Shown in pieces: positions 12,652 to 55,091 of a DNA stretch of 64,000 bases. The DNA lies in contig NZ_KE386496.1 in NCBI RefSeq assembly GCF_000427445.1, forward strand, positions 2,805,504 through 2,869,503, written 5' to 3'. The notes under the pieces are model-generated. The model worked only from the letters and a program-made list of their open reading frames with translations, ran no database searches and was not told the origin of the DNA. Made by a program: the position numbers and the translations under genes. Each line of letters starts with the position of its first letter. Positions within the stretch are counted from its first letter, which is position 1. The DNA comes from Methylocapsa acidiphila B2. GTDB taxonomy: Bacteria; Pseudomonadota; Alphaproteobacteria; Rhizobiales; Beijerinckiaceae.

Positions 12652-12667
12652 TGTTTCACGTGAAACA
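12652..12667. promoter_or_regulatory. parS: parS centromere site, perfect 16-bp palindrome
   Basis: The sequence TGTTTCACGTGAAACA matches the conserved chromosomal parS consensus at all 16 positions. ParB binds parS, loads with CTP and spreads to organise the origin region for segregation by ParA. The site is in the 90-nt gap between mnmE and mnmG, 2.7 kb from parA. It probably also overlaps the mnmG leader. Confidence 0.95.
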
Positions 12668-33514: not shown

Positions 33515-33750
33515 ATGGCTGAGCAAGACGAAGGCGAAAAATCCGCGGCGATCCTGCGTTTTCCTCTGTCCCGCGCGACGCCGCCCGGCAGCGCCGGCGG
33601 CTTCGTCGATCTCGGCGTCGGCGCGATGGCGCGCCGGTTGGGCATGCGCGAGGGCCAAATGACCGGCCATTGGTGCAGCCGCTGCAAGGAGTCTGGTTCG
33701 GCTATGCGTTCGAGGTCGAATGCCCATGTTGCGGCAATAGGCATGGCTGA
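33515..33750 (+). pseudogene. Frameshifted zinc-ribbon protein gene
   Basis: The ATG at 33515 opens MAEQDEGEKSAAILRFPLS and continues to HWCSRCK at codon 58. As read, the frame then gives ESGSAMRSRSN and non-conserved sequence to about 33775. In the -1 frame from the same point it becomes GVWFGYAFEVECPCCGNRHG and stops at 33750. Joined, the two halves make a 79-residue protein with WCSRC and CPCCGNRHG, a convincing zinc ribbon. A missing G in AAGGA (33686-33690) would account for it. It may be a mutation, a sequencing error or recoding. No family is recognised. Confidence 0.55.
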
Positions 33751-33882
33751 GAACAATGGTTCTCTATACCTGTAAACTTGATTTGCAAATGGAAACAAAG
33801 TTTCTATGCAATTCGGTTTTTTGGAACGGTATTTCTGCAATTAACTAACTGATAAATAGGAATAGTTTTCTCCTTTCCTTGC

Positions 33883-33898
33883 CGGCATGGCATTTGCG
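33883..33898 (+). promoter_or_regulatory. Sigma-54 promoter upstream of hhyS
   Basis: CGGCAT (33883-33888), five bases, then TTGCG (33894-33898) matches the -24/-12 pattern TGGCAC-N5-TTGCA at four of six and four of five positions. The invariant GG and GC dinucleotides have the obligatory spacing. Transcription should start near 33909, some 50 nt before the hhyS ATG. The preceding 100 bases are AT-rich, suiting IHF or activator-loop binding. The upstream NtrC-type regulator is the obvious activator. Confidence 0.65.
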
Positions 33899-33959: not shown

Positions 33960-34922
33960 ATGGCCAATCTTTTATGGCTCCAAGGCGGCGCCTGCTCCGG
34001 CAATACAATGTCCTTTCTCAACGCCGAGGAGCCGAGCGCCTGCGACCTCGTGACCGATTTCGGCATTAACGTCCTTTGGCACCCGTCCCTCGGGCTCGAG
34101 CTTGGCGACAACGTCAAGCAGATCCTCCTGGACTGCATCTCGGGCAAGATCCAGCTCGACATTTTCGTCTTCGAAGGCACTGTCGTGAACGCGCCGAACG
34201 GCACCGGCAATTGGAACCGGTTTTGCGGCCGGCCGATGAAGGATTGGGTCAAGGAACTCTCCGACGCCGCGCAATTCGTGGTCGCGATCGGCGATTGCGC
34301 CACCTGGGGCGGCATTCCCGCCACCGCGCCGAACCCGAGCGAATCGGTTGGGCTCCAGTTCCTGAAGCGCGCGCCCGGCGGTTCGCTCGGAACGTCGTTC
34401 AAGTCTAAGGCCGGCCTCCCGGTCATCAATATTCCGGGCTGCCCCGCCCATCCCGACTGGGTCACCCAGATCCTCGTCGCCGTCGCCTCGGGCCGCGCCG
34501 GCGATCTTACCCTCGATGAATTCCAAAGGCCGAAGACCTTTTTCACGAGCTTCACCCAGACCGGCTGCACCCGCAACATGCACTTCGCTTACAAGGTCTC
34601 GGCGACGGCCTTCGGCCAGCGCAAGGGCTGCCTCTTCTATGATCTCGGCTGCCGCGGTCCGATGACGCATAGCCCCTGCAACCGCATTCTCTGGAACCGG
34701 CAATCCTCCAAGACCCGGGCCGGCATGCCCTGCCTCGGCTGCACCGAGCCCGAATTCCCCTTCTTCGACCTCGCGCCGGGTACGGTGTTCAAGACCCAGA
34801 CCGTCATGGGGGTGCCGAAAGACATGCCGGCGGGCGTCGACAAGACTGGCTATGTCAAGCTGACGGCGGCCGCCAAAGCCGCCGCCCCGGCCTGGGCGGA
34901 AAAGGACATTTTCGTCGTCTGA
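33960..34922 (+). CDS. hhyS: Group 1h [NiFe]-hydrogenase small subunit
   Basis: The 320-residue electron-transfer subunit of the actinobacterial-type high-affinity hydrogenase that oxidises H2 at atmospheric levels. Fe-S ligand regions include GGACSGNTMSFLN, IGDCATWGG, NIPGCPAHPDW, QTGCTRNMHFAYK, KGCLFYDLGCRGP and GMPCLGCTEPEFPF. It lacks the Tat signal peptide seen in other group 1 small subunits, a known trait of group 1h. A strong GGGAGGA ribosome site precedes ATG 33960; an upstream ATG (33933) lies before that site. The close resemblance to actinobacterial sequences (from memory) suggests horizontal origin. Confidence 0.96.
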   Translation: MANLLWLQGGACSGNTMSFLNAEEPSACDLVTDFGINVLWHPSLGLELGDNVKQILLDCISGKIQLDIFVFEGTVVNAPNGTGNWNRFCGRPMKDWVKELSDAAQFVVAIGDCATWGGIPATAPNPSESVGLQFLKRAPGGSLGTSFKSKAGLPVINIPGCPAHPDWVTQILVAVASGRAGDLTLDEFQRPKTFFTSFTQTGCTRNMHFAYKVSATAFGQRKGCLFYDLGCRGPMTHSPCNRILWNRQSSKTRAGMPCLGCTEPEFPFFDLAPGTVFKTQTVMGVPKDMPAGVDKTGYVKLTAAAKAAAPAWAEKDIFVV

Positions 34923-34943
34923 CCAGAGGAATTAAGGCCGCCG

Positions 34944-34963
34944 GCGGGCCATGGGGTCCGCCG
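34944..34963 (+). terminator. Hairpin between hhyS and hhyL
   Basis: GGCGGGCC (34944-34951) pairs with GGTCCGCC (34956-34963) with one G-U pair around a 4-nt loop. No T run follows, so it is more likely a processing or mRNA-stability hairpin that sets the subunit ratio than a full terminator. The unusually long gap of 143 nt between the subunit genes contains it. Confidence 0.35.
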
Positions 34964-35065
34964 CGCAGCAGTTCGAGCCGAATTTTTGCGACGCGGACAG
35001 CCGCTGTCGCCGATCGGGAGGGGCCCAGAGCTCCCCGTCGCGTGTCATTGAGGAGCACCAGCATC

Positions 35066-36667
35066 ATGGCCGAAGCAGCCGTACAGACGCTTGACATATC
35101 ACCGGTGGGGCGCGTCGAGGGCGACCTCGACGTGCGCGTCGACATCGCCGACGGCGTCGTCGTCAACGCCTGGACCCAGGCGGAGCTTTTTCGCGGCTTC
35201 GAGATCATCCTGCGCGACAAGGACCCGCAGGCGGGCCTCGTCGTCACGCCCCGCGCCTGCGGCATTTGCGGCGCCTCGCACCTGACCTGCGCCGCTTGGG
35301 CGCTCGACACCGCCTGGGGGACCACGGTGCCGCGCAACGCGATTCTCGCGCGCAATCTCGGCCAGCTCGCGGAATCGCTGCAGAGCCTGCCGCGTCATCA
35401 CTATGGCCTGTTCATGATCGACTACACGAACAAGGCCTATGCCGGCAGCCCCTATTACGAAGAGGCGGTCAAGCGCTGGTCGCCCTTCACCGGCGCGCAT
35501 TACGAGGCCGGCGTCACGATTTCCGGCCGTCCGGTGGAGATCTATGCGCTGCTCGGCGGGCAATGGCCGCATTCGAGCTATATGGTTCCAGGCGGCGTCA
35601 TGAGCGCGCCGACGCTCACGGACGTGACCCGCGCGTGGTCGATCCTCGAGCATTTCCGCCGCAACTGGATGGAGCCTATGTGGCTCGGCTGCTCGCTCGA
35701 GCGCTACGAGCAGATCCAATCCTATGACGATTTCCTCGCTTGGCTCGATGAGCGGCCGGAGCACGCCAATTCCGACCTCGGCCTGTTTTGGCGCATGAGC
35801 CTCGACATCGGCCTCGACAAATATGGCAAGGGCCTCGGCAAATATGTCACCTGGGGCTATCTGCCTCACGAGGACAAATACAACCATCCGACCATCGAGG
35901 GCCGCAACGCCGCCGTCATCATGAAAAGCGGTGTCTATGACGGCAAGACCGACACTCATAAATTGATGGACCAGTCCTTCACCCGCGAGGACACGCTGCA
36001 CGCCTGGTACGACGAGGCGAGCCCGGTGCATCCGTTCGACCGCACCACCAAGCCGATCTCCAAGAACGATCTCGACCACAACGCCAAATATTCCTGGTCG
36101 ACCGCCGTGGCCCATGTCGACAACGGCCGGCTCGAGGCCGGCCCGCTCGCACGCCAGCTCGTCGCTGGCGGCAAGCATGGCGAGAGTTGGCAGCATTACG
36201 ATCCGCTGCTGCTCGACATGTATAAAAAGCTCGGCGGTGCAAGCGTGGTTTTGCGTCATTTCGCCCGCATGCACGAAGGCGTGAAAATCTATCGCGAGAT
36301 GGAGCGCATCTTGCGCGAGCTGCGCCTCAACGACGAATGGTACATCAAGCCGACCGAGAAAGACGGCCGCGGCTGGGGCGCGACGGAGGCCATTCGTGGC
36401 GCGCTCTGCCATTGGATCGAGGTGCAGAACGGCAAGATCAAGAATTACCAGATGATCGCGCCGACGACCTGGAACGTGGGCCCCCGCGCCGAGACCGGCG
36501 AGCGCGGCCCGATCGAGGAGGCGCTGATCGGCACGCCGATCAAGGACAAGCACGATCCCGTTGAGGTCGGCCATGTCGCGCGCTCCTATGATTCGTGCCT
36601 CGTCTGCACGGTCCATGCACATGACGCCAAGACCGGCGCCGAGCTCGCCCGTTTCCGCACGGCGTGA
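35066..36667 (+). CDS. hhyL: Group 1h [NiFe]-hydrogenase large subunit
   Basis: The 533-residue catalytic subunit. The L1 motif RACGICGASH supplies Cys65 and Cys68. The L2 motif near the C-terminus reads DSCLVCTVH (Cys511, Cys514), with Ser where most uptake enzymes have Pro. A 16-residue tail (AHDAKTGAELARFRTA) follows the final His and is expected to be cleaved by the protease encoded at 37250. The N-terminal SPVGRVEGDLDVRVDI box is standard. The start MAEAAVQT (35066) is chosen over the ATG at 35042. It forms the H2-activating unit with HhyS. Confidence 0.96.
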   Translation: MAEAAVQTLDISPVGRVEGDLDVRVDIADGVVVNAWTQAELFRGFEIILRDKDPQAGLVVTPRACGICGASHLTCAAWALDTAWGTTVPRNAILARNLGQLAESLQSLPRHHYGLFMIDYTNKAYAGSPYYEEAVKRWSPFTGAHYEAGVTISGRPVEIYALLGGQWPHSSYMVPGGVMSAPTLTDVTRAWSILEHFRRNWMEPMWLGCSLERYEQIQSYDDFLAWLDERPEHANSDLGLFWRMSLDIGLDKYGKGLGKYVTWGYLPHEDKYNHPTIEGRNAAVIMKSGVYDGKTDTHKLMDQSFTREDTLHAWYDEASPVHPFDRTTKPISKNDLDHNAKYSWSTAVAHVDNGRLEAGPLARQLVAGGKHGESWQHYDPLLLDMYKKLGGASVVLRHFARMHEGVKIYREMERILRELRLNDEWYIKPTEKDGRGWGATEAIRGALCHWIEVQNGKIKNYQMIAPTTWNVGPRAETGERGPIEEALIGTPIKDKHDPVEVGHVARSYDSCLVCTVHAHDAKTGAELARFRTA

Positions 36668-36687
36668 CGCGGGAGGAACCCCCCGCG
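36668..36687 (+). terminator. Terminator-like hairpin after hhyL
   Basis: CGCGGG (36668-36673) pairs with CCCGCG (36682-36687) immediately after the hhyL stop, followed by CCGTTTC. The stem is strong but the T tract is short. It may reduce read-through into the accessory genes, making more HhySL than accessory proteins. The next gene starts 207 nt later. Confidence 0.4.
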
Positions 36688-36894
36688 CCGTTTCATGGCC
36701 GACGCCATTGCGCTCCGATCAGCAGCAGCCTGATCCTGGGCGCAATGGCTCGCGTCTTGAAACTGATCTAAACTCCGCCGACAGGATGTTGTATGCTTGC
36801 GACTTGCGCGCTGCGAGCGCGCGGTCCGGCTTGTCGGCCCTGCCCCCAATGGCGCGACAATGACAGGCTCGACCTGGTTCTTGAGGCTGGCGCC

Positions 36895-37209
36895 ATGTCT
36901 GCTGCGGATACGAATGAAACCCTCGACAAGATCACCAAGCTTCTGGCGGGTGGATTGAAGACCAGGACCGAGGGCATTCCCGAGACCGAAAAGGAATTTG
37001 GCGAAATCTTGAACGAGTTGCGGGCGCTCGCCCCAGACGATCTGGAAGGCAAGCTCGTGATTGGCGGCTTCATCAACCATCCTTATGGCGAAGAGCAATA
37101 TCGATGCATGGAGTGCATGTATTACCTCGTCCATCGGAAATGGTGCGATCTGCCCGAACTCGCCGTGCCGGTCGAGCCGGATTGGTGGTGCCGCCTTTGG
37201 CGGATTTAA
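36895..37209 (+). CDS. Small four-cysteine (HiPIP-like) protein of the hydrogenase cluster
   Basis: A 104-residue protein starting MSAADTNETLDKI, with GAGG upstream. The first 60 residues are helical and charged. The last 35 contain Cys71, Cys74, Cys84 and Cys99 in CMECMYYLVHRKWC and WWCRLWRI (C-x2-C-x9-C-x14-C, aromatic-rich). The spacing and the terminal WC-x2-W resemble high-potential iron-sulfur proteins, though there is no signal peptide. It sits between hhyL and the maturation protease, so an electron carrier or maturation factor is plausible. A zinc site is an alternative. I recognise no named family. Confidence 0.65.
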   Translation: MSAADTNETLDKITKLLAGGLKTRTEGIPETEKEFGEILNELRALAPDDLEGKLVIGGFINHPYGEEQYRCMECMYYLVHRKWCDLPELAVPVEPDWWCRLWRI

Positions 37210-37249
37210 CGCGCTGGCCGAGGCGGCTGGCGCCTCGCGGAAATGTCCC

Positions 37250-37732
37250 ATGTTGGCGGTGATTGGTTGCGGCAATCTCAATCGCTGCGACGACGGCGTC
37301 GGCGCGATCGTCGCGCAACGCTTGCTGTCGCGCGGCTATGAGTCTTCGGGTCGGCTAAGGATCTTCGACGCCGGGACCAATGGCATGGAAGTCCTGTTTC
37401 AAGCGCGCGGCGCAAAAAAGCTCGTCATTGTCGACGCTTGCGCCAGCGGCGCCGAGCCCGGAGCCGTTTTCGAGGCGCCGGGATCTTTTCTCGAAAACCA
37501 TCCCGAGCCGAGCTTCACCTTGCATGATTTTCGTTGGGACCACGCGCTTTACGCCGGGCGCAGAATTTGGGCCGATGAATTTCCCGACGACGTGACGGTC
37601 TTTCTTGTTGAGGCGCAGACATTGGATTTCGGCCTCGAGCTTTCCGAACCTGTCGCCAAGGCGGCCGAGATCGTCGCCACGCGGGTATCGGCGATGATCG
37701 ACGCCTATCTGGCGACGGAGCCCGCGCCGTGA
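37250..37732 (+). CDS. Hydrogenase maturation endopeptidase (HyaD/HupD family)
   Basis: A 160-residue protease that trims the large-subunit C-terminus after nickel insertion. It begins MLAVIGCGNLNRCDDGVGAIV, the family motif with the nickel-sensing Asp. A second conserved acidic residue is in RIFDAGTNGMEVLF, and His lies in FTLHDFRWDHAL. The start at 37250 gives the normal N-terminus; the open frame to 37061 overlaps the previous gene. Its target should be the 16-residue tail of HhyL. Confidence 0.9.
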   Translation: MLAVIGCGNLNRCDDGVGAIVAQRLLSRGYESSGRLRIFDAGTNGMEVLFQARGAKKLVIVDACASGAEPGAVFEAPGSFLENHPEPSFTLHDFRWDHALYAGRRIWADEFPDDVTVFLVEAQTLDFGLELSEPVAKAAEIVATRVSAMIDAYLATEPAP

Positions 37733-38073
37733 GCGACGCGCAAACGGGGATCGACGTTTGGCGGCTGCGCGTCCACCGCGACCATATTTATATCGATGCG
37801 GCGGATTTCACCGCGCATTTGGCCAATGCCGGCAATGTGATCTTGCTGCGCGAGGGCGGCGATCTCTTGGTCTTGCCTCTGGTCAGCGCCGCAGCCGGCG
37901 GTTTTCTCGTCAAGCAGGTCAATGCGCGCGGCGATCGGGCCATTCATGCGGCGGATTTTTTCCGGTTGAACGGGATCGACGAGCGAGACGATCTCGTTGC
38001 GGAGGCCGTTTGGAGCGAGGCGCGCGCCGGCTATGTCATTGGCGGATTTTTCGCCGAGCGCCCCGAGTCTTGA
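37729..38073 (+). CDS. Conserved small protein of group 1h clusters
   Basis: A 114-residue soluble protein starting at GTG, which overlaps the protease stop (GTGA). It is alpha/beta, with DHIYIDAADFTAHLANAGNVILLREGGDLLVLPLV and a terminal GYVIGGFFAER. There are no Cys and no membrane segment. Position and translational coupling with the endopeptidase suggest an assembly or chaperone role, but the sequence gives no direct evidence. Confidence 0.6.
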   Translation: MSDAQTGIDVWRLRVHRDHIYIDAADFTAHLANAGNVILLREGGDLLVLPLVSAAAGGFLVKQVNARGDRAIHAADFFRLNGIDERDDLVAEAVWSEARAGYVIGGFFAERPES

Positions 38074-38190
38074 TCAGCTAACTAAGTTTGCAGGTCGAAA
38101 GTAAACTAGACTCTATCTACGCAAGCGCCTAATCGTGAACATTGGAGAGCCCGAGTTGAATCGGGTCGAGGTTTGGGAAGGAGCGCCGCC

Positions 38191-39213
38191 ATGTCGACGC
38201 GCGCGGACGCGGATGTCGAAGCCGCCTTGGCGGCCGTGGAGGCCGAGGACGCGACCCTCGCGGAAAAGGTCGAGATGCTCATGGAAATGGCCATGGGCTT
38301 GCAGATCCGGCCGCGCTCTCCCCATGATTTGTTCCAATCCGTCAAGCTTTACGAGACCGCGCTCGGACTCTGCCCGTCCGAGCTAGGTCTTCTGCGCGGC
38401 CGGATCCATGCGCGTCTCGCGACTGCGCTCCAGTCCATTCCTTCCGAGGATCTCGAGCCTCTGCAGAGAGCCAAGGAGAATCTGGAGACCGCGCGGGATC
38501 TGCTTCAGCTCGGCGGCGCGCCCGAGGAGCTGGCGGAAATCGAGATGAATCTTGGCTTGGTTTTCCAAAGCCTCGCCGCGGCCCATGCGGCGCCGATCAC
38601 TATGGCGATCTCCGCCTATCAGAGGGCGTTGCGCATATTCGACGCCCATGCGTTTCCGCGCGAATACGCGATCTTGCAGAACAATCTCGCGACCGCCTTT
38701 CTATCGATCCCTTTCTCGGACGAGCGCGCGAAAATGCGTGAGGCTCTCGCGGTGCAGGCCTTTCAGGATGGGTTGAAAGTGGTCAATATCATCGACCATC
38801 CAACCGAATATGCGATGCTTCAGAACAATCTCGGCAACGCCCTGCAATATGCGTCGTCGAGCCATGCGGTGGAAAATTGCCTGCGCGCGCTCGACGCCTA
38901 TGACGAGGCGCTCAAGGTGCGCACGCGGGCGACGACTCCGGTCGAATTCGCCAACACGATAGCCAATAGAGCCAATTGCCTGCGCAACCTCCCGGACGAC
39001 GTCGCTCGCCCTGAACGCGGCAATGCGGCCAATCTCGATGAGGCTCTGCGTTGGTACCGCGAGGCCGAGGACATATTCGCCCAGTTTGGCGAGCGCCAGA
39101 AGGTCGCAAGCGTCGCGGAAATGATCGCCGAGATCGAGGCTGAGGCGGCGCGGCAAGACCCGTCCGCAGCCGAGCGCGTCATCGACGCCCAACACATCAC
39201 AGGCGTTCAATAG
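38191..39213 (+). CDS. Tetratricopeptide-repeat protein of the hydrogenase cluster
   Basis: A 340-residue helical protein starting MSTRADADVEAAL, with AGGAG eight bases upstream. Repeated TPR-like helices include SVKLYETALGLCPSELGLLRGRIHARLATAL, AISAYQRALRIFDAHAFPREYAILQNNLATAFL and a second NPTEYAMLQNNLGNAL-type unit. The EYAxLQNNLxxA pattern recurs at about residues 154 and 212. It has no signal peptide. TPR proteins scaffold complexes; one is found in other group 1h loci by memory. It may assist assembly or membrane attachment of HhySL. Confidence 0.7.
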   Translation: MSTRADADVEAALAAVEAEDATLAEKVEMLMEMAMGLQIRPRSPHDLFQSVKLYETALGLCPSELGLLRGRIHARLATALQSIPSEDLEPLQRAKENLETARDLLQLGGAPEELAEIEMNLGLVFQSLAAAHAAPITMAISAYQRALRIFDAHAFPREYAILQNNLATAFLSIPFSDERAKMREALAVQAFQDGLKVVNIIDHPTEYAMLQNNLGNALQYASSSHAVENCLRALDAYDEALKVRTRATTPVEFANTIANRANCLRNLPDDVARPERGNAANLDEALRWYREAEDIFAQFGERQKVASVAEMIAEIEAEAARQDPSAAERVIDAQHITGVQ

Positions 39214-39251
39214 ATCATGCGACGCTGGAATTCGATGACGGGGGAACGTTT

Positions 39252-39452
39252 ATGATTTGGTCGTTTTTTCTTGGGCTTGTCGCCATCGTGCTCGGGGCCG
39301 CCTTTTCAGTCGCGGGAGGCGCGGTCGGAGGGATCGCAGTCGGCGGCAAAGCGCTCGGCAATGAACTCGCCGCCTGGCTCGGCGCCTTCTATGGACCGCT
39401 CGCCGGCGCCGTCGGCGTCCTTATCGGCGTCCTCCTCCTCGCCATCCTTTGA
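39252..39452 (+). CDS. Small Gly-rich membrane protein
   Basis: A 66-residue protein with two hydrophobic helices separated by a Gly/Ala turn (SFFLGLVAIVLGAAFSV and GPLAGAVGVLIGVLLLAIL). AGVGG-type packing motifs suggest oligomerisation. It lies between the TPR protein and a second small membrane protein. A plausible role is anchoring the otherwise signal-less hydrogenase at the membrane, which is inference. Confidence 0.6.
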   Translation: MIWSFFLGLVAIVLGAAFSVAGGAVGGIAVGGKALGNELAAWLGAFYGPLAGAVGVLIGVLLLAIL

Positions 39453-39464
39453 GAGGCCGCGTTC

Positions 39465-39686
39465 ATGTTCGAAATGGTGAAATCATCCGCGCTGCTGTTC
39501 TTCCAGGGCAAGCTGTTTCAGGATCAGAACCTGGCCCTGCGCCAGCTCGGGATCGGGATTGGAATCACGGTCGTTGTGTTTCTGATCGTCGCATTGCTCT
39601 TTAACGTCGTGCTCGCCGGCATTGTGGCGGGCTTCGTTGGGGGAGCGGCGCAGCCCTATCTGTTCAAGGATTTGAAATACCGCTGA
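39465..39686 (+). CDS. Small membrane protein of the hydrogenase cluster
   Basis: 73 residues: an amphipathic N-terminus (MFEMVKSSALLFFQGKLFQDQNLALRQ), then one long hydrophobic region (IGIGITVVVFLIVALLFNVVLAGIVAGFVGGA) that can form a helical hairpin, and a charged tail ending DLKYR. It begins 12 nt after the previous gene. It is likely co-translated and co-functional with it. The function is not known. Confidence 0.6.
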   Translation: MFEMVKSSALLFFQGKLFQDQNLALRQLGIGIGITVVVFLIVALLFNVVLAGIVAGFVGGAAQPYLFKDLKYR

Positions 39687-39734
39687 AGCGACTCGCCGTC
39701 CTGACATCGAGGGCGGGCCGCCTGGGAGACGATC

Positions 39735-40607
39735 GTGAATGCGCATGCGCAGCCGTCGGAAGAGGAAGCGCGGGGCGTCGATCAGCTCATCGACGATCTG
39801 GAGCGGCTTGAAGTTCTAATCGCCGGCTGGGACGAGTCCCAGCGCGTCATTGCGCTCGCTTATCGGCGCGCGATCGACGCTTTGCATGAAGGCGCGCTGC
39901 GCAAGCTGATCGCGGAGGTCAAGACGGCGCCCGGAGCGCTCGACGCATTGCGCGCAGCCGCTGCAGATCCGCTTGTTTATGCGGTCCTGAGGCGGCACGG
40001 CCTCGTCAAGCCGAGCCTGCAGGAAAGAGTCGAGCGCGCGCTCGCTTCCATCCGTCCGATGCTTGCCGCGCATGGCGGCGACGTCGAGCTCATCGCCTTT
40101 GATCCGCCTGACGCGGTCGAAGTCCGTTTTCTCGGCAATTGCGATCATTGCCCGTCCTCGACCCTGACCTTCGTCGCCGGGGTCAAGCAGGCAATCGAGG
40201 AGCAATGCCCCGAGATCAAGCATATCCGCCAAGCGAAGAGCGCCGGCGCGGTCGGCGCGAGCCTCGATTTCATTAGTCCCTTCGCCTCGAAGCGCGACGG
40301 CGGTTGGCGCTATGCGTCAGCGCTGGACGAGATCCCGGAGCAGGGCGTCAAATCCTGCGCCGTCAATGGCGTCCCGCTGATCTTGAGCCGCCTTGGCCGC
40401 GTCGTGGCCTGTTTCCGCGACGCATGCGCCCATCTCGGCTCGCCCATCTCCAGCGGCGCGGTCGCCGAAGGCCGGATCGTCTGTCCCCGCCACGGCTTCG
40501 AATATGATCTGATGTCTGGGGAATGTCTGACCGCGCCCCAGGCGCAATTGCAGCCGGTCGCCTGGCGCGTGGTCGGCGAGCGCGTCGAAATCAGGTTCGA
40601 GGATTGA
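39735..40607 (+). CDS. NifU-like / Rieske fusion protein (HhyE-like)
   Basis: 290 residues starting at GTG. Residues about 15-90 are helical. Residues about 95-165 form a NifU C-terminal (Nfu) domain with Cys136 and Cys139 in GNCDHCPSS. Residues about 190-290 form a Rieske [2Fe-2S] domain with Cys231-x-His233 and Cys250-x2-His253 in DACAHLG and CPRHGFEYD. Such fusions are typical partners of group 1h enzymes. The Rieske centre is a good candidate for passing electrons from HhyS to the quinone pool or another carrier. It is predicted cytoplasmic. Confidence 0.88.
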   Translation: MNAHAQPSEEEARGVDQLIDDLERLEVLIAGWDESQRVIALAYRRAIDALHEGALRKLIAEVKTAPGALDALRAAAADPLVYAVLRRHGLVKPSLQERVERALASIRPMLAAHGGDVELIAFDPPDAVEVRFLGNCDHCPSSTLTFVAGVKQAIEEQCPEIKHIRQAKSAGAVGASLDFISPFASKRDGGWRYASALDEIPEQGVKSCAVNGVPLILSRLGRVVACFRDACAHLGSPISSGAVAEGRIVCPRHGFEYDLMSGECLTAPQAQLQPVAWRVVGERVEIRFED

Positions 40608-40611
40608 AGCG

Positions 40612-41799
40612 ATGCGCGTCTCGCTGAAAGCTCTCGCCGATCCGCCGCCTGCCGCTGCGGCTCCTGCGCCGCCGCTCCTCGACCCCGCCGGTCCCGAGAC
40701 CGTCCTCGGCGTAATCTCCAGCGGCTTCGATCTCACCATCCCGGTCGCGCCGTCGGCGGCCTCGATGTTCGGCCCGCGCGGCGCCGCGCTCGCCGCGCCC
40801 GAGGGGCCGCTCTTCGTCGCCGACACTGGCCACCACCGGCTTCTGGCCTGGCGCCGGCGTCCCGCCGCCGATTTCGCGCCGGCCGATTTCCTCATCGGCC
40901 AACCCGATTTCGCGCATGAGGGGCGCAACGCCAAAGGCGAGCCCGGCGCGGCGACGCTGAACGTCCCGACTGGCGTTGCCGCGCGCCCCGACGTTCTGGT
41001 TGTGGCCGACGCCTGGAACCATCGGGTTCTGATTTGGCGCGGGCTGCCGACCGCCGACAACCTGCCGGCCGACATTGTCCTGGGCCAAGCTGATTTCACC
41101 GGAATGCTGGCCAATCGCGGCGGCGAAGTCCGCGCGGACACGCTCAACTGGTGCTATGGCGTGAGCCTGATCGGAGACGGCCTCGTCGTCTGCGATGCAG
41201 GCAACCGCCGTGTGCTGATCTGGCGAGAAATCCCAAGCGAAAACGGGACTCCCGCGGATTTGGTTCTCGGGCAGGCGCGCATGGATTGCCGGGATGAGAA
41301 CGGCGGACGGGGCGTCGATGCGCGCGGCATGCGCTGGCCCCATGCGGCGGCGCTCGCCGGCGAGGCTTTGCTCGTCGCAGATTCCGGCAATAACCGCATC
41401 ATGGTCTGGCGGCGCCTGCCTTGCGAAAATGGCGCGCCGGCTGATTTCGTGATCGGCCAGAACGACGTCTTCGCCTCCGAGCATAATCGGGCCCATTATC
41501 GGCCGGACGCCGCCTGCCTCAACATGCCTTACGGCTGCGCGGTGCTAGGAGAGAGTTTGATCGTCGCCGATACGGCGAACTCGCGCCTGCTCGGCTTTCC
41601 GCTCGACGCGCTCGACATGGGAGCGCCGGCGGAACGCCTCAGCGGCCAGCCCGATTTCACGTCCAAGGGAGACAATCGCTGGAAGGCGCCGGCGCGCGAC
41701 AGCCTGTGCTGGCCTTATGGTGCGACGGCCATGGGAGATACGGCGGTCGTCGCGGATTCCGGCAATAATCGCGTCCTTCTATGGAGGGCTGCCCGATGA
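40612..41799 (+). CDS. NHL-repeat beta-propeller protein of the hydrogenase cluster
   Basis: 395 residues, with about six blades showing variants of LFVADTGHHRLLAWRR, LVVADAWNHRVLIWRG, LVVCDAGNRRVLIWRE, LLVADSGNNRIMVWRR and AVVADSGNNRVLLWR. Each blade is followed by a P/DxVLGQxDF segment. No signal peptide is seen (MRVSLKALADPPPAAAAPA). It is four nt after the Rieske fusion and overlaps hypF by 4 nt. NHL proteins recur in group 1h loci by memory. A docking or scaffolding role is inferred. Confidence 0.85.
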   Translation: MRVSLKALADPPPAAAAPAPPLLDPAGPETVLGVISSGFDLTIPVAPSAASMFGPRGAALAAPEGPLFVADTGHHRLLAWRRRPAADFAPADFLIGQPDFAHEGRNAKGEPGAATLNVPTGVAARPDVLVVADAWNHRVLIWRGLPTADNLPADIVLGQADFTGMLANRGGEVRADTLNWCYGVSLIGDGLVVCDAGNRRVLIWREIPSENGTPADLVLGQARMDCRDENGGRGVDARGMRWPHAAALAGEALLVADSGNNRIMVWRRLPCENGAPADFVIGQNDVFASEHNRAHYRPDAACLNMPYGCAVLGESLIVADTANSRLLGFPLDALDMGAPAERLSGQPDFTSKGDNRWKAPARDSLCWPYGATAMGDTAVVADSGNNRVLLWRAAR

Positions 41800-44180
41800 A
41801 CTCCGCCTTCGGCGAGCCGACGGGCGCCGAGATCCGTGTGCGCGGCCGCGTGCAGGGCGTAGGCTTCCGTCCGACCGTCTGGCGGCTCGCCAATCGCCTG
41901 GGGCTCAGCGGCGAGGTGTTTAACGATGGCGACGGCGTCCTCATTCGCATTGCCGCCGGGCTCAAGATGGCTGAGCGCCTCGTCGCCGCGCTGAAGGACG
42001 AATGCCCTCCGCTCGCGCGGATCGATTCGCTCGATCTACGCCCCGCTCAAGCGCCTTGCGGCCTCGAGGGTTTCCATATTTCCGTGAGCGGCGGCGGCCC
42101 CATGAACACGCAGGTCGCGCCCGACGCGGCGACCTGCCCCGCCTGCCTTGCCGAGATCCGCGATCCCTTCGCAAGGCGCTTTCGCTATCCTTTCACGAAT
42201 TGCACCCATTGCGGTCCGCGCCTCTCGATCGTCGCGCGCGCGCCCTTTGATCGCGCGCGCACGACCATGGCGCCTTTCGCCATGTGCGAGGCCTGCCGCT
42301 CGGAATATGAGAACCCGGAGGATCGCCGCTTCCATGCGCAGCCGATCGCCTGCCATGCCTGTGGGCCGAAAGTCTCCATCGCCAGAATGGGCGGCGGAGC
42401 GGTGGAGTTCTCGGCCTTCAGCATGCTTGACGACGCCGACGCCGTCGCCGGCATGCTGCTCAAGGGCCATATCGTCGCGATCAAGGGCATAGGCGGCTAC
42501 CATCTCGCCTGCGACGCCACGAATGAGGAGGCCGTATCGCGGCTTCGCGCGCGCAAGCGGCGCTATGGCAAGCCCTTCGCCCTCATGGCGCGCGATCTCG
42601 ACATCATCCGCCGCCATGCTGTGATCGGCGCGCGGGAAGAGGCGGCGCTCGGATCGACGGCGGCGCCGATCGTCCTCCTTGCCGCGCGGAGCGAGCCGCG
42701 GCTGCCGGATGCCGTGTCCAATGGTCTTTCGACGCTCGGCTTCATGCTGCCTTACACGCCGCTGCATCATCTGATCTTCCGCCGGCTCGACCGGCCCATG
42801 GTCATGACGAGCGGCAATCTTTCCGACGAGCCGCAAGTGACAGACGATGAAGAGGCGCGGGAAAGACTCGGCGCAATCGCGGATTTCATCCTGAGCCATG
42901 ACCGGGAGATCGCGGTTCGGCTCGATGATTCGGTCGTTCGCGTCGCCAATGGCGAAGAGCGCGTGGTTCGTCGCGCCCGCGGTTTCGCGCCGGCGCCTCT
43001 CCCTCTCCCGGAGGGACTGCGCGCGAGGCCGCCGCTCCTCGCCATGGGCGCCGAGCTCAAGAACACGTTCTGCCTCGCCAAGGACGGCGAAGCCATGCTC
43101 TCGCACCACATGGGCGATCTCGAAGATGCCGCCGCCCTCGCCGATCTGGAGCAGACGCTTGCGCTTTACGAGACGCTCTACGAGCATCGGTCGGAGGCCG
43201 TCGCCGTCGATCTCCACCCCGATTATCTTTCGACCAAATTGGGCCGGCGGATCGCGCGCGACAAAGGCCTGCCGCTGATCGAGGTCCAGCACCACCACGC
43301 CCATATCGCGAGCTGTCTCGCCGAGAATGGCGTCGCCGCCGGGGAAGGCCCCGTGCTCGGCGTCGCGCTTGATGGGCTCGGATTCGGCGATGACGGCGCG
43401 CTTTGGGGCGGTGAGTTCCTGCTCGCGGATTATGCGGGTTACCGCCGCATAGGCACGTTCAAGCCGGTCGCCCTGCCGGGCGGCGCTCAGGCTATGCGGG
43501 AGCCCTGGCGCAACGCGCTCGCCCATATTCTCGCCGCGGTCGGTTGGCCGGCCTTCACCGCGAATTTCGCCGAGATCGAGCTTTACGATTATCTAAAGGC
43601 GAAGCCGGTCGAGACCATGGCGGCCATGATCAAGCAGGAGCTGAACGCGCCGCCGGCGAGCTCTTGCGGGCGCCTGTTCGACGCCGTCGCCGCCGCCATC
43701 GGCCTGTGCCGAGACGTCGCCTTGCATGAGGGCGAGGCGGCGATGCGCCTCGAGGCGCTCGTCGACGCCGACGCCCTGGCCGCCATCGACGAGGATCTCG
43801 CCTATCCTTTCGCTCTTCCTAATCTGAAGGGCTTAGGACTTCCCTATATCGAGCCGGCCGCCATGTGGCAGGCGCTTCTCGGCGATCTTTATGAGAAGGC
43901 GCCGCCTTCGGTCATCGCCGCGCGTTTTCACAAAGGGCTCGCGCGAGCGGTCGCCGCCATGGCTTGCAAAGTCGTGCGCGACGCCGGCGTCACAAGACGC
44001 GTCGCGCTGTCGGGCGGGGTTTTCCAGAATCGTCCTTTCACCGAAGAGATCGTCCGCCGCCTCGAGGCCGAGAATTTCGAGGTTCTCTTGCAGGCCAAGG
44101 CGCCAACCAATGACGGCGGCATCTCGCTCGGCCAGGCGGCCGTGGCGGCGGCGCGGCTCGCCGCAGATCGTGGAGGATAG
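41796..44180 (+). CDS. hypF: Carbamoyltransferase HypF
   Basis: Converts carbamoyl phosphate to carbamoyl-AMP and transfers it to HypE for CN ligand synthesis. Order: acylphosphatase-like domain with VRGRVQGVGFRPTVWRLA, zinc pairs CPACLAEI, CTHCGP, CEACRSEY and CHACGP, a YrdC-like domain (GIGGYHLACDA), then a Kae1-like domain with VQHHHAHIASCLAE and ALSGGVFQN. Length is 794 residues. The start MNSAFGEP overlaps the NHL gene stop (ATGA). It is the first of six hyp genes on the strand. Confidence 0.96.
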   Translation: MNSAFGEPTGAEIRVRGRVQGVGFRPTVWRLANRLGLSGEVFNDGDGVLIRIAAGLKMAERLVAALKDECPPLARIDSLDLRPAQAPCGLEGFHISVSGGGPMNTQVAPDAATCPACLAEIRDPFARRFRYPFTNCTHCGPRLSIVARAPFDRARTTMAPFAMCEACRSEYENPEDRRFHAQPIACHACGPKVSIARMGGGAVEFSAFSMLDDADAVAGMLLKGHIVAIKGIGGYHLACDATNEEAVSRLRARKRRYGKPFALMARDLDIIRRHAVIGAREEAALGSTAAPIVLLAARSEPRLPDAVSNGLSTLGFMLPYTPLHHLIFRRLDRPMVMTSGNLSDEPQVTDDEEARERLGAIADFILSHDREIAVRLDDSVVRVANGEERVVRRARGFAPAPLPLPEGLRARPPLLAMGAELKNTFCLAKDGEAMLSHHMGDLEDAAALADLEQTLALYETLYEHRSEAVAVDLHPDYLSTKLGRRIARDKGLPLIEVQHHHAHIASCLAENGVAAGEGPVLGVALDGLGFGDDGALWGGEFLLADYAGYRRIGTFKPVALPGGAQAMREPWRNALAHILAAVGWPAFTANFAEIELYDYLKAKPVETMAAMIKQELNAPPASSCGRLFDAVAAAIGLCRDVALHEGEAAMRLEALVDADALAAIDEDLAYPFALPNLKGLGLPYIEPAAMWQALLGDLYEKAPPSVIAARFHKGLARAVAAMACKVVRDAGVTRRVALSGGVFQNRPFTEEIVRRLEAENFEVLLQAKAPTNDGGISLGQAAVAAARLAADRGG

Positions 44181-44183
44181 GTC

Positions 44184-44462
44184 ATGTGTCTCGGCATCCC
44201 CGGCCGAATCGTCGCTATAACCGACGCAAGCCGCAAATTGGCGACCGTCGACGTCGCGGGCGTCAAGCGCGAGATCAATGTCGCCTGCATCATCGGCGAT
44301 CGCGCCGTCGAGGATTGCGTTGGCGATTGGGTGCTCGTGCATGTGGGCTTCGCCATGAGTCTGATCAATGAGGAGCAGGCGATCGAAACCCTGCGCATCT
44401 TGACCGAGCTCGGCGAGGCGCAACAGGAAATCGCGGCGATGCGCGCCTCAGGGCGAATGTAG
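44184..44462 (+). CDS. hypC: Hydrogenase assembly chaperone HypC
   Basis: A 92-residue chaperone starting MCLGIPGRI, with the essential N-terminal Cys2 after Met. It carries iron with CN/CO ligands together with HypD and binds immature large subunit. The VDVAGVKREINVACI strand and GDWVLVHVGFAMSLINEEQA follow the family pattern. It begins four bases after the hypF stop. Confidence 0.95.
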   Translation: MCLGIPGRIVAITDASRKLATVDVAGVKREINVACIIGDRAVEDCVGDWVLVHVGFAMSLINEEQAIETLRILTELGEAQQEIAAMRASGRM

Positions 44463-44490
44463 CGCGGTCGGAGCGGCAGGAGGTCGGATC

Positions 44491-45636
44491 ATGAAATATG
44501 TCGACGAGTTCCGCGATCCGGAAAGGGCCGCCGTCCTCATCGCGGCGATCGGCGATCTCGCGCGATCCCTCGACCGCGCCCGCGAGCGCCCACTCCACAT
44601 CATGGAGGTCTGCGGCGGCCATACGCATACAATTTTTCGCTACGGCATCGCCAACATGCTGCCGGCGGAGATCGAGCTGGTGCATGGGCCGGGTTGCCCG
44701 GTCTGCGTGCTCCCGATGGGCCGGGTCGATGATTGCGTCGCCATCGCCGAGGCGCCGGGCGTGATCTTCGCCACTTTCGGCGACGCCATGCGCGTGCCGG
44801 GCTCCAGAAAAAGCCTGTTGCAGGCCAAGGCCGAAGGCGCCGACGTGCGCATGGTCTATTCGCCGCTCGACGCGCTCGCGCTGGCCCACGAAAATCCGCA
44901 GCGCGAAGTGGTCTTCTTCGGTCTCGGCTTCGAGACAACCATGCCCTCAACGGCCTTCACCGTGTTGCAGGCGGAGGCGGAGGGCGTCCGAAATTTTTCG
45001 CTGTTCTGCAACCACATCACCATCGTCCCGACGATGAAGGCGATTCTCGATTCGCCCGATCTTGAGCTCGACGGCTTTCTTGGTCCGGGCCATGTGTCCA
45101 TGGTTACCGGCACGAGGCCTTATGAATTCATCGCGAGAGATTATTATAGGCCGCTCGTCGTCGCGGGCTTCGAGCCGCTCGACATTCTCCATTCCCTCTG
45201 GCTCGTCCTCAAGCAGATCGTTGAGGGTCGTTGCGAGATTGAGAACCAATATGGAAGAGTCGCGCCGCGCGACGGCAACTCGGCGGCGCAGGATGCGATC
45301 GGCAAGGTTTTCGAGCTTCGCGAATTCTTCGAATGGCGCGGCCTCGGCTCAATCGATCATTCGGGCGTGCGCATGCGCGAGGCCTACGCCGCCTATGACG
45401 CGGAGCGCAAATTCGCGATTCCCGCGCTTCATGTCGCCGATCCGAAATCCTGCCAATGCGGCGAGGTTCTGAAAGGCGCGATCAAGCCGTGGCAATGCAA
45501 GCTCTTCGGCGCCGGTTGCGCGCCGGAAACGCCGCTCGGCGCCTTGATGGTGTCGTCGGAAGGGGCTTGCGCCGCCTATTATCAATATGGCGATTTGGAG
45601 GGGTTGCGCGCGAAGCGCGCGGCCAATGCGGCATGA
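44491..45636 (+). CDS. hypD: Hydrogenase Fe(CN)2CO assembly protein HypD
   Basis: A 381-residue [4Fe-4S] scaffold on which the Fe(CN)2CO unit is made. Motifs: MEVCGGHTHTIFRYG, HGPGCPVCVLPMG, GLGFETTMP, CNHITIVPT and GFLGPGHVSMVTG. The cluster cysteines near the C-terminus are in CQCGEVLKG, KPWQCKLFG and GAC-type positions. The stop overlaps the hypE ATG (ATGA). Confidence 0.96.
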   Translation: MKYVDEFRDPERAAVLIAAIGDLARSLDRARERPLHIMEVCGGHTHTIFRYGIANMLPAEIELVHGPGCPVCVLPMGRVDDCVAIAEAPGVIFATFGDAMRVPGSRKSLLQAKAEGADVRMVYSPLDALALAHENPQREVVFFGLGFETTMPSTAFTVLQAEAEGVRNFSLFCNHITIVPTMKAILDSPDLELDGFLGPGHVSMVTGTRPYEFIARDYYRPLVVAGFEPLDILHSLWLVLKQIVEGRCEIENQYGRVAPRDGNSAAQDAIGKVFELREFFEWRGLGSIDHSGVRMREAYAAYDAERKFAIPALHVADPKSCQCGEVLKGAIKPWQCKLFGAGCAPETPLGALMVSSEGACAAYYQYGDLEGLRAKRAANAA

Positions 45637-46715
45637 ACAAGCCAGAACCCGGCAAGCTTCTGCGGCCCCAACGCAAATTGCGCGACGGCGTCCATGTCGC
45701 CAAAGTCACGCTCGCGCATGGCGGCGGCGGCAAGGCGATGCGCGACCTGATCGATGATGTCTTCGTCTCGGCCTTCGACAATCCGGTCCTGGCGCCGCTC
45801 GAAGATCAGGCGCGGATTTCTTTGGCGGATCTCGCGCTCCACGGCGACAGGCTCGCATTCACTTCGGACTCCTTCGTCGTCGATCCGCTCGAATTTCCCG
45901 GCGGAGACATCGGCAAGCTCGCAATTTGCGGCACGGTCAACGATCTCGCGGTCGGCGGCGCCAAGCCGCTCTATCTCTCATGCAGCGCGATCATCGAGGA
46001 AGGCGTCGAGGTCGACCTGTTGCGCAAGCTCGCGCGATCCATGGCCGAGGCTGCTGCTGCGGCGGGCGTCGCGATCGTCACTGGCGACACCAAGGTCGTC
46101 GGTCATGGCTCTTGCGACAAGCTCTTCATCAACACTGCTGGCGTCGGCGTGATCCGCGCCGGAATCGATCTCGGGGCTCATCGGGCCGAGCCCGGCGACG
46201 CGATACTGGTCAACGGCCTTCTCGGCGATCATGGCGCGGCCATTCTCGCCGCGCGGGGCGATCTGCGCCTCGAAACGCGGATCGAGAGCGATTGCGCGCC
46301 GTTGAATGGCCTCATCGACGCGCTGCTCGACGCCTGCCCCGAGGTCAAGTTCATTCGCGACGCCACGCGCGGCGGTTTGGCGACCGTGTTGAACGAGATC
46401 GCGGAGGCCTCAGGCGTCGGCGTGGAGATCGACGAGAACGCGCTGCCGCTGCGCGCGGAAGTCGCGGGCTTTTGCGAGATCCTCGGGCTCGATCCGCTCT
46501 ATCTCGCCAATGAAGGTAAGATCGTCGTTGTCGCGCCGGCTGCCGTCGCCGAGAAGGCGCGAGCCGCGCTCACCGCGCATCCGCTCGGCCGGGAGTCCGC
46601 GATCATCGGGCTTGTTACAGATGGACCCGCAGGCCGCGCCTCGATGCGCACAAAGTTCGGCGGCAAGCGCGTGGTCGATATGCTGGTCGGCGAGCAATTG
46701 CCGAGGATTTGCTGA
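45633..46715 (+). CDS. hypE: Carbamoyl dehydratase HypE
   Basis: 360 residues, member of the PurM/ThiL superfamily. It takes the carbamoyl group from HypF on its C-terminal Cys and dehydrates it to thiocyanate. AHGGGGKAMRDLI, LAFTSDSFVVDPLEFPGGDIG and GTVNDLAVGGAKPLYLS give the ATP-binding frame. The protein ends PRIC, the obligatory terminal cysteine. The start at 45633 overlaps hypD; an earlier open frame to 45456 is inside hypD. Confidence 0.96.
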   Translation: MNKPEPGKLLRPQRKLRDGVHVAKVTLAHGGGGKAMRDLIDDVFVSAFDNPVLAPLEDQARISLADLALHGDRLAFTSDSFVVDPLEFPGGDIGKLAICGTVNDLAVGGAKPLYLSCSAIIEEGVEVDLLRKLARSMAEAAAAAGVAIVTGDTKVVGHGSCDKLFINTAGVGVIRAGIDLGAHRAEPGDAILVNGLLGDHGAAILAARGDLRLETRIESDCAPLNGLIDALLDACPEVKFIRDATRGGLATVLNEIAEASGVGVEIDENALPLRAEVAGFCEILGLDPLYLANEGKIVVVAPAAVAEKARAALTAHPLGRESAIIGLVTDGPAGRASMRTKFGGKRVVDMLVGEQLPRIC

Positions 46716-46739
46716 GTGTTTGACAGACGAGACCGGGCG

Positions 46740-47075
46740 ATGCACGAGATGGGAATCACGCAATCGATCGTCGCCATCGTCACGGAGCAAGCCGCCGGCC
46801 GAAAGGTGACGCGGGTGACGCTCGAGATCGGCAAGCTCGCGGCGATCATGCCCGACGCGATCCGCTTCTGCTTCGATGTTGTCGCGCGGGGCGGTGCGCT
46901 CGACGGCGCGGCGCTCGACATTATCGAAGTGCCGGGTCGCGCGCATTGTCTCGATTGCGGCGGCGAGGTCGCGCTCATGGAAATTTTCGGCCGCTGCGCC
47001 TGCGGCTCTCGCCGACTCGAAAGATTGAGCGGCGAGGAGCTCAATATCAAAAGCATGGAAGTGGAGACGGTCTGA
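46740..47075 (+). CDS. hypA: Hydrogenase nickel insertion protein HypA
   Basis: A 111-residue metallochaperone. It begins [11 protein letters not shown], with the nickel-binding His2 and Glu3. The zinc ribbon is in CLDCGG and CACGS (CxxC and CxC rather than two CxxC pairs). With HypB it delivers nickel to HhyL precursor. The ATG at 46740 is chosen because homologues always begin MHE; the stop shares bases with the hypB start (TGATG). Confidence 0.93.
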
Positions 47076-47980
47076 TGTGCGGCACCTGCGGATGCGGCGA
47101 CGACGCCAAGGTCACGATCACAAATCTCGAGACCGGCAAGGCGGAGCGAGCGGATTCCCTGCGCGCGCCGCATGAGCATGGCCATGACCACGATCATTCA
47201 CATGAGCACGGGCATGGTCATCATCACGATCACGGACATCATCATCATGGCGATCATGCCCATAGCCATGCCGAACCGGCGCCGGTCGCCGCCTTGGCGG
47301 CTATGCACGCGGTCAACATCGACGTCGAGCGCGCTATCCTCGCCAAGAATGACGCGCTCGCCGAGCGCAATCGCGCCTGGTTCGACGGCCGCGAGATTCT
47401 GGCGCTGAACCTCGTGAGCTCGCCCGGCGCCGGCAAGACCTCATTGCTGGAGCGCACGATCCGCGACCTCGGGGCGGAGATGCCGATCTTCGTGATCGAA
47501 GGCGACCAGCAGACGTTGAACGACGCCGAGCGTATCAAGGCGGCCGGCGCGCCGGCCGTGCAGGTCAACACCGGCACGGGATGTCATCTCGAGGCGGATA
47601 TGGTGCGCCGTGGCCTCGACGCTTTGCGGCCGGCCTTCGGCGCGGTTGTGATGATCGAGAATGTCGGCAATCTCGTCTGCCCGGCGCTGTTCGATCTCGG
47701 CGAGCGGGCCAAGGTCGTGGTGTTGTCGGTGACCGAAGGCGAGGACAAGCCGCTCAAATATCCGCATATGTTCAGAGCCGCCGAATTGATGATCCTGAGC
47801 AAGATCGATCTTTGTCCGCATGTCGATTTCGACATCGACCGCTGCGAGGCCTTGGCGCGCGAGGTCAATCCTGGCATTCGCGCGATCAGGCTCTCGACGC
47901 GCTCGGGGGAAGGCCTCAACGAATGGTATGATTGGCTGCGCGCCGCCCGCGCCAGTCGTGGGCAAGAGGCCGCGCAATAG
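47075..47980 (+). CDS. hypB: Hydrogenase nickel GTPase HypB
   Basis: 301 residues. It begins [10 protein letters not shown], the N-terminal CxxCxC high-affinity nickel motif. A His-rich stretch (about residues 33-64) holds nearly 20 histidines for nickel storage. The SIMIBI GTPase domain follows, with P-loop [17 protein letters not shown], the conserved GCHLEADM and [14 protein letters not shown] motifs and SKIDLCPH. It ends the 16-gene hydrogenase run that began at hhyS. Confidence 0.96.
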
Positions 47981-55075: not shown

Positions 55076-55091
55076 TGTTTCACGGGAAACA
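55076..55091. promoter_or_regulatory. Possible third parS-like site
   Basis: TGTTTCACGGGAAACA matches parS at 15 of 16 positions; the central T at position 10 is G, which breaks the CACGTG core symmetry. It is four bases past the pentapeptide-gene stop, some 28 kb from the candidate origin. The core change may greatly weaken ParB binding, so function is uncertain. Confidence 0.45.

Follow-up and report, generated by a model that had tools for sequence, protein, structure and literature searches.

Gene content of the locus

The subject of this study is a stretch of 64,000 nucleotides from Methylocapsa acidiphila B2 (contig NZ_KE386496.1, positions 2,805,504 to 2,869,503; hereafter the window), which harbors a [NiFe] uptake hydrogenase locus of almost certain group 2a (Huc-type) affiliation at positions 33960-47980. 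Sixteen genes follow one another there, all on the plus strand, as judged from open reading frames (ORFs), Pfam and NCBIfam matches and checked start codons (Table 1). The run and its gene order, with hypFCDEAB at the 3' end, had been described in this way by a first-pass annotation and are borne out by our analysis. The view of a complete, self-contained locus, with subunit, protease, accessory and hypA-F genes, is supported as well. The named parts were found again, while the TPR assignment stands on weak ground (Pfam E=0.0099, below cut-off). The one gene left without a name encodes a 114-aa protein that matched no Pfam or NCBIfam family; iterated hidden Markov models (HMMs) of this protein found relatives in 81 loci from several phyla, against 104 loci with a hucL match. 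Two further genes had been overlooked, an activator gene and a zinc-ribbon-like ORF, and both precede hucS in relatives, too. Relatives and the plasmids named below show these genes in the same order, and the arrangement is therefore not a matter of chance.

Judged by eye from its N-terminus and from an alignment, the small subunit shows no apparent twin-arginine translocation (Tat) signal. Its sequence begins MANLLWLQGG, and the alignment to the HucS chain in 7uur pairs residues 2-320 with residues 1-322, which supports the earlier view of a cytoplasmic enzyme.

Table 1. Genes and elements of the huc locus and its upstream region (window coordinates).
Feature	Position	Strand	Basis and remarks
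NtrC-family sigma-54-dependent response regulator	32021..33478	+	Pfam Response_reg, Sigma54_activat, HTH_8; HupR/HoxA-like position; upstream of hucS in relatives too
small zinc-ribbon-like ORF with CxxC motifs	33515..33775	+	frames, homologues, start codon
possible sigma-54 -24/-12 promoter element	33883..33898	+	score 18 of 21; 61 nt upstream of hucS
hucS, small subunit, 320 aa	33960..34922	+	Pfam Oxidored_q6, NiFe_hyd_SSU_C; 535 bits to 7uur_D
hucL, large subunit, 533 aa	35066..36667	+	Pfam NiFeSe_Hases; 636 bits to 7uus_A; tree; start codon
four-Cys HiPIP-like protein, paralogue A, 104 aa	36895..37209	+	alignment of 25; HiPIP profile comparison (suggestive)
hycI-type maturation protease, 160 aa from this ATG	37250..37732	+	Pfam HycI; TIGR00072 above cut-off; start codon
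114-aa accessory protein, unnamed family	37729..38073	+	HMM matches in related loci
TPR-like protein, 340 aa	38191..39213	+	weak Pfam TPR_12, below cut-off; conserved in relatives
66-aa Gly-rich membrane peptide (asr0689-like)	39252..39452	+	two hydrophobic segments
73-aa membrane peptide	39465..39686	+	one hydrophobic segment, 36-54, at threshold used
hucE, NifU-Rieske protein	39735..40607	+	Pfam NifU, Rieske; CDHC and CAH-x16-CPRH motifs
NHL-repeat protein	40612..41799	+	Pfam NHL
hypF	41781..44180	+	TIGR00143 above cut-off
hypC	44184..44462	+	Pfam HupF_HypC; TIGR00074 above cut-off
hypD	44491..45636	+	TIGR00075 above cut-off
hypE	45633..46715	+	TIGR02124 above cut-off; start codon
hypA	46740..47075	+	TIGR00100 at cut-off; start codon
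hypB with His-rich stretch	47075..47980	+	TIGR00073 above cut-off; start codon

Placement of the enzyme in group 2a

The large subunit reaches 636 bits against HucL of Mycobacterium smegmatis (7uus_A) versus 128 bits against HofG (5aa5_C), and the small subunit 535 bits against HucS (7uur_D) versus 119 bits against HofK (5aa5_A). Sequence identity of the large subunit amounts to 56.2% with M. smegmatis HucL, 36.3% with the group 2b sensor HoxC, 30.9% with the group 1h reference HofG, and 29.7% and 30.6% with the 1h enzymes of the sibling genomes G005 and G011. A large-subunit tree of 54 rows was obtained by a quick search, with support from the Shimodaira-Hasegawa-like approximate likelihood ratio test (SH-aLRT) only; it comprised 21 of 80 genome-contig loci, these being the best 80 of 418. 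The window sequence falls inside a Huc clade of 47 rows (SH-aLRT 95) and, nested therein, a proteobacterial clade of 20 rows (SH-aLRT 99), apart from groups 1h, 1d, 2b and 3d. Its nearest partner is the 95.5% identical enzyme of G005, while HofG and the 1h enzymes of G005 and G011 form a separate group (SH-aLRT 100), such that the separation from group 1h holds in identity as well as in the tree. The basal branching is unsure because long branches meet there, including the 2b side versus the proteobacterial side. On one long branch, next to the 2b reference, sits the hydrogenase of locus L033 (genome G085), which is 38-41% identical to HucL and is accompanied by a small subunit and a protease, no other huc accessory genes having been found nearby.

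These results overturn the group assignment of the first-pass annotation, which had called the enzyme a group 1h (Hhy) high-affinity hydrogenase and had itself named a phylogeny with 1h references as the check and a placement outside this group as counterevidence. In exactly this phylogeny the large subunit clusters with HucL and not with HofG. Both families are uptake enzymes without a Tat signal that have NifU-like and hyp genes in their loci, and the genus of the window does include true 1h loci: of 99 relatives searched with HofG, 4 possess a 1h enzyme (G005, G006, G007, G011), all of them from this genus. However, 31% identity to HofG stands against 56% to HucL, the window genome contains no HofG relative at E≤1e-60, and its HucE is of the Rieske type. 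Given subunit bit scores, tree and identities, we rejected a group 1h assignment, the chance of which we regard as negligible.

The accessory genes were compared in the same respect. HucE of the window combines a NifU CxxC motif (CDHC) with the Rieske motif CAH-x16-CPRH, matching both Pfam NifU and Rieske; CxxH, as found here, is the usual form of the second half of a Rieske motif. The HhyE-type pair of C-terminal CxxC motifs was not found, the sole CxxC being located in the NifU domain. In the literature, group 2a HucE is distinguished by a Rieske motif, printed as CxH(x15-18)CxxC, and group 1h HhyE by two CxxC motifs (PMC6883350). Furthermore, the two 1h clusters examined (L162, L163) contain relatives of the pHG1 DUF5947 and DUF6084 proteins beside HofKG, and a Pfam match to either family was obtained for none of the sixteen window genes.

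A search of the genome with PF00374 returned the large subunit of the window besides a single weak and partial match at another place (25.8 bits). There is thus no second strong hydrogenase match in the genome, and consequently no group 2b sensor was found.

Absence of HucM and presence of two membrane peptides

In M. smegmatis, HucM is the stalk that connects Huc with the membrane, a tube thought to carry menaquinone to HucS, where the quinone is held by Tyr229, Tyr301 and the Lys212 backbone (PMC10017518). We derived a grown HucM model from the DUF1641 protein encoded upstream of hucS in M. intracellulare, which matches the HucM chain 7uus_Q at 2.9e-34. With this model HucM was detected in 0 of 22 proteobacterial huc loci, compared with 63 of 72 others that had at least 1.5 kb upstream of hucS. 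L033 was left out of these locus counts and of those for the three small genes and the zinc ribbon given below, and contigs too short for a given count were left out of that count; L035, whose contig lacks hucS, is not among the 22. HucM/DUF1641 had no match in the window locus or the window genome, and DUF1641 was found in none of 16 proteobacterial huc genomes searched as a whole, 13 of which have a completeness of 90% or more and a contamination of 5% or less.

The distribution of three small genes is the reverse. All 17 testable proteobacterial loci, but 0 of 65 others, have the genes for the 66-aa peptide, the 73-aa peptide and the four-Cys protein, testable meaning that at least 7.5 kb downstream are present in the contig, and HucM was never found together with any of them in one of the loci counted. 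Without using models of these families, a scan of the 4.2 kb that follow hucL finds a small, weakly charged ORF with two hydrophobic segments in 14 of 18 proteobacterial loci versus 0 of 73 others. The distance between the TPR gene and hucE, tried as a further model-free test for the peptide pair, was dropped: distances overlap between the groups, and some of the other loci have an extra gene there, such as a 126-aa ORF in the Thermus locus. As a side observation on the TPR gene, the copy in the huc locus of G823 (L161:8357-10821) is interrupted by about 2.4 kb of additional sequence.

The quinone site was compared across the same loci. Tyr229, Tyr301 and Lys212 are kept in 22 of 22 proteobacterial and 2 of 2 Bacteroidota HucS rows, and in 83, 84 and 84, respectively, of the 85 other HucS rows (M. 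smegmatis included), while the triad is complete in none of six reference rows (1h, 2b, 1d, L033). M. smegmatis HucS has Cys at 11 positions, and 9 of these hold a Cys in every one of the 22 proteobacterial rows as well. Judged from these residues, the quinone site seems to be kept although its known delivery part is gone, and we infer that HucS still reduces quinone directly. With HucM missing, the 66-aa and 73-aa peptides are therefore the best candidates for a membrane anchor and quinone portal, and the pair may be a replacement of HucM. We also asked whether one of the small proteobacterial proteins might be a diverged HucM, and found no support for this idea: for the four-Cys, 66-aa, 73-aa and zinc-ribbon proteins, the probability against the HucM profile was at most 1.1%.

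Several points weigh against a replacement. The values for the 66-aa and 73-aa peptides are at most 0.4%, and a replacement, if any, would therefore be non-homologous. The scan of whole genomes for DUF1641 had no HucM-bearing positive control, and control genomes matched in 3 of 14 cases. Both Bacteroidota loci (L040, L044) contain neither HucM nor the peptide pair; together with the seven other non-proteobacterial loci without a HucM match (L079, L089, L098, L103, L105, L111, L121 (Frankia); n=9 in total), they mean that HucM can be absent, or be missed by the model, without this replacement. Moreover, the loci are not independent, since L037 is nearly the same as L133 and L038 as L134, and mycobacteria, judging by record titles, account for 26 of the 85 others, and the co-occurrence of the peptides may stem from the shared ancestry of one branch. 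Finally, the pair could serve assembly, as suggested for asr0689-alr0692 of Nostoc (PMC2408588). Extended to the four-Cys, TPR, NHL and 114-aa proteins, this would make all of them assembly or Fe-S maturation factors for HucS and not working parts of the enzyme. TPR, NifU and NHL domains would suit such chaperone roles. However, one would hardly expect a cytoplasmic enzyme to be matured by integral membrane peptides, and among the loci examined these peptides are confined to those that lack HucM. We consider this explanation rather unlikely.

The two Bacteroidota loci are located on plasmids of Runella and Hymenobacter. They also lack a recognizable HucE while their HucS quinone residues are kept, and hence represent a third arrangement.

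The four-Cys protein and the route of electrons

The third gene confined to HucM-less loci encodes a small protein whose last 34 residues read C-x2-C-x9-C-x14-C-RLWRI in the window. Its family was aligned from 25 members. Of the 20 proteobacterial huc loci in which this region is complete, 15 contain a tandem of two paralogues, A and B (L027, L028, L030, L031, L036-L039, L131-L134, L159-L161), and the window, L024, L025, L026 and L035 have A alone. In a comparison with a profile of high-potential iron-sulfur proteins (HiPIPs), built from 12 fragments after three further fragments that did not look like HiPIPs had been dropped, all four Cys and the closing Trp are in register, with an hhalign probability of 31% for the whole protein and 50% for the C-terminus. 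The score of 23.0 was reached by 0 of 80 Cys-preserving and 0 of 40 full shuffles (largest 17.2); the zinc-ribbon family scored 10 in the same comparison. Neither Pfam HIPIP (PF01355) nor any other Pfam family matched the window protein. Among the 25 members, one matched Pfam HIPIP at E=0.89, the weakest of ten families; nine unrelated families (E 0.015 to 0.14) outrank it, and the direct search therefore does not single HIPIP out. A profile search of the PDB gave two matches (E=0.68 and 4.7), neither over the Cys part, and a single-sequence AlphaFold2 model was unusable (mean predicted local distance difference test score 44). Taken together, the evidence for a HiPIP-like protein is suggestive, and its role is probably that of a redox relay bound to HucSL or of a structural partner.

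Members of the family are present in 4 of 385 genomes of the class and, in the three other than that of the window, beside hucL. A second, solitary copy of the paralogue A type exists in the window genome (G000:C2:82157-82456, i.e., L158:9158-9457), flanked by a GYD-domain ORF and phoU; no other huc-gene match was found by tblastn in the 19-kb stretch around it.

A HiPIP-like protein raises the question of whether electrons exit via this protein, the Rieske domain of HucE or both, instead of a quinone bound at HucS. In Acidithiobacillus ferrooxidans, a putative HiPIP near hupLS and a NifU-Rieske protein were proposed as such a link (PMC7735108), the register and the shuffling results would fit, and deletion of hucE stops Huc activity in M. 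smegmatis (PMC6883350). However, the quinone-site residues are kept in every proteobacterial HucS row, and the HiPIP homology is itself only suggestive, as the hhalign and Pfam values given above illustrate. In addition, loss of HucE in M. smegmatis also abolishes staining with an artificial acceptor (PMC6883350), and an assembly role therefore fits HucE better than a relay. An exit by this relay is, in our view, improbable, though worth keeping in mind.

Upstream region, regulation and source of hydrogen

Within 300 nt upstream of hucS, a sigma-54 -24/-12 site is present in 18 of 22 loci (p≤0.03 versus Markov-sampled sequence). Together with the gene for an NtrC-type activator, this suggests sigma-54 control of the locus. 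Two observations speak against such control: the site of the window itself, taken alone, is not significant (p=0.08), and no sigma-54 site was found upstream of hucS in L038, L131 and L134. The motif TGT-N10-ACA, a NifA-type site, does not occur upstream of hucS; four copies are present in the window, which is about chance level. The zinc-ribbon gene, absent from all 72 non-proteobacterial loci, carries in the window a frameshift ahead of the C-terminal CxxC and is unbroken in relatives, which reflects either a sequencing error or a true loss.

Atmospheric H2 oxidation by group 2a enzymes is on record for three cultured bacteria (PMC7784904), and high-affinity uptake is therefore plausible here by analogy. 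However, the same genome contains nifH (over the curated cut-off), and the recycling of H2 from the organism's own nitrogenase is consequently an alternative to atmospheric scavenging. Such recycling is a role reported for group 2a in cyanobacteria (PMC7784904), and the sigma-54 type activator with its probable promoter would fit. In contrast, the lack of a TGT-N10-ACA site upstream of hucS and the documented oxidation of atmospheric H2 speak against recycling as the main job, which we regard as possible but somewhat doubtful. Both roles are compatible with each other.

Distribution and genome setting

The host genome comprises 4.10 Mb in two contigs and contains a PmoA/AmoA-family gene (PF02461); this alphaproteobacterium is thus probably a methanotroph. 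HucL of at least 82% identity is present in 11 of 99 relatives, the window genome included, and in 6 of 15 genomes of the genus (in G006, hucL is split across two contigs). At the level of the phylum, HucL was found at E≤1e-120 in 4 of 398 genomes, again including that of the window, and no HucL relative was found on viral contigs. Within the genus, HucL takes two positions in the tree, as the sequences of G008 and G010 join that of a Bradyrhizobium plasmid (SH-aLRT 91) and are separated from that of the window. Enzymes with 80-85% identity are encoded on plasmids of Mesorhizobium, Bradyrhizobium, Sphingopyxis, Octadecabacter, Roseovarius and Novosphingobium. Furthermore, the dnaQ-like gene and fliI, which flank the window locus, lie at least 0.4 Mb apart in the 5 of 9 relatives that have both on one contig; in the remaining four they are found on separate contigs. 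Lateral transfer of the locus would be the simplest reading of this pattern.

On two plasmids the huc locus has neighbors of the Calvin cycle. It adjoins RuBisCO and other Calvin-cycle genes on pMHb of Mesorhizobium huakuii (L036), while cbbX, phosphoribulokinase and the RuBisCO small subunit gene are near it on a plasmid of Mycobacterium intracellulare (L042). Apart from the locus, an unrelated pattern scan revealed TGTTTCACGTGAAACA and TGTTTCACGGGAAACA at window positions 12652-12667 and 55076-55091, which we take to resemble parS centromere sites and which would presumably place the window near the replication origin.

Discussion

Group 2a hydrogenases of Alphaproteobacteria, with a proteobacterial radiation that includes At. 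ferrooxidans (PMC7784904), and a group 2a cluster in Methylocapsa aurea (PMC12319191) are already in print. The locus itself is thus of a known kind, and what may be new is its architecture, a design without HucM and with a peptide pair; no paper that sets HucM against such a pair was found in the open-access library searched.

The likeness to M. smegmatis Huc (PDB 7utd, 7uus; PMC10017518) lies in HucS and HucL, including the Cys and quinone-site residues, and protease, TPR, HucE, NHL and hyp genes are also found in a related mycobacterial locus. In contrast to M. smegmatis, the window lacks HucM, and in contrast to non-proteobacterial huc loci in general it has the four-Cys protein, two membrane peptides and the zinc ribbon. 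The Hup system of At. ferrooxidans, compared here by way of its publication, is likewise of group 2a, with hupR, a NifU-Rieske protein and the putative HiPIP near hupLS, and its enzyme is described as mostly soluble (PMC7735108). Nostoc PCC 7120 shares with the window, in its hupSL and extended hyp operon, asr0689-asr0690 (two transmembrane segments) and TPR, NifU-like, NHL and hyp genes, the asr0689-alr0693 set being located between hupSL and hyp. However, alr0692 combines NifU with thioredoxin-like domains where HucE of the window is NifU-Rieske, and a four-Cys gene is not among the five ORFs listed for Nostoc (PMC2408588, PMC3126725).

Closer to the host, the alphaproteobacterial methanotroph M. 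aurea KYG shares HucSL, HucE, HycI and HypF in its Hyd-2a, for which low transcription was reported, and possesses a Hyd-1h besides (PMC12319191), unlike the window genome with its lack of a HofG relative at E≤1e-60. The group 1h AH of Cupriavidus necator H16 (HofKG, L046) is an uptake enzyme with its own hyp set as well, but differs by its 31% identity and by a cluster with DUF5947, DUF6084 and a NifU-family protein. An archaeal relation of the missing part is HysM, a modelled HucM homologue of a group 2e enzyme (PMC11018855).

From these observations the following mechanism can be envisioned. An NtrC-type activator and sigma-54 would turn the operon on, and HypA-F and HycI would construct the active site. 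Cytoplasmic HucSL would then oxidize H2, at low concentrations if it is like the characterized group 2a enzymes, and electrons would run through the Fe-S clusters of HucS to a quinone bound at HucS itself, while the 66-aa and 73-aa peptides would serve as membrane anchor and quinone portal. For this mechanism as a whole, the balance tips slightly in favor.

More tentatively, and at somewhat less than an even chance, group 2a would comprise at least two designs of membrane coupling that share the HucS quinone site: the HucM tube on the one hand, and a pair of tiny Gly-rich membrane peptides with HiPIP-like partners on the other. The proteobacterial design is perhaps found in cyanobacteria as well and perhaps meant for high-potential quinones (ubiquinone, plastoquinone) and not menaquinone, a link that draws on general physiology and inference. 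That cyanobacteria share the peptides is suggested by the literature and by one weak family match, as the 66-aa peptide scores 37.3 bits against NCBIfam NF052670, the asr0689 family, below the cut-off of 95. The Bacteroidota loci, with neither HucM nor the pair, do not fit any simple rule of two designs.

The correct placement of the enzyme matters for its host. Since 1h and 2a enzymes are reported to have opposite expression profiles (PMC7784904) and differ in their partners HhyE and HucE (PMC6883350), predictions for the organism would go astray under the wrong group label. If the reading of a HucM-less design is true, it would provide named genes as candidates for the route by which proteobacterial and perhaps cyanobacterial uptake hydrogenases reach the membrane quinone; none of the HucM-bearing loci examined has these genes. 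For cyanobacterial enzymes, the immediate acceptor of which has been called long enigmatic (PMC6883350), the existence of two designs would, if true, answer what links the uptake hydrogenase to the membrane.

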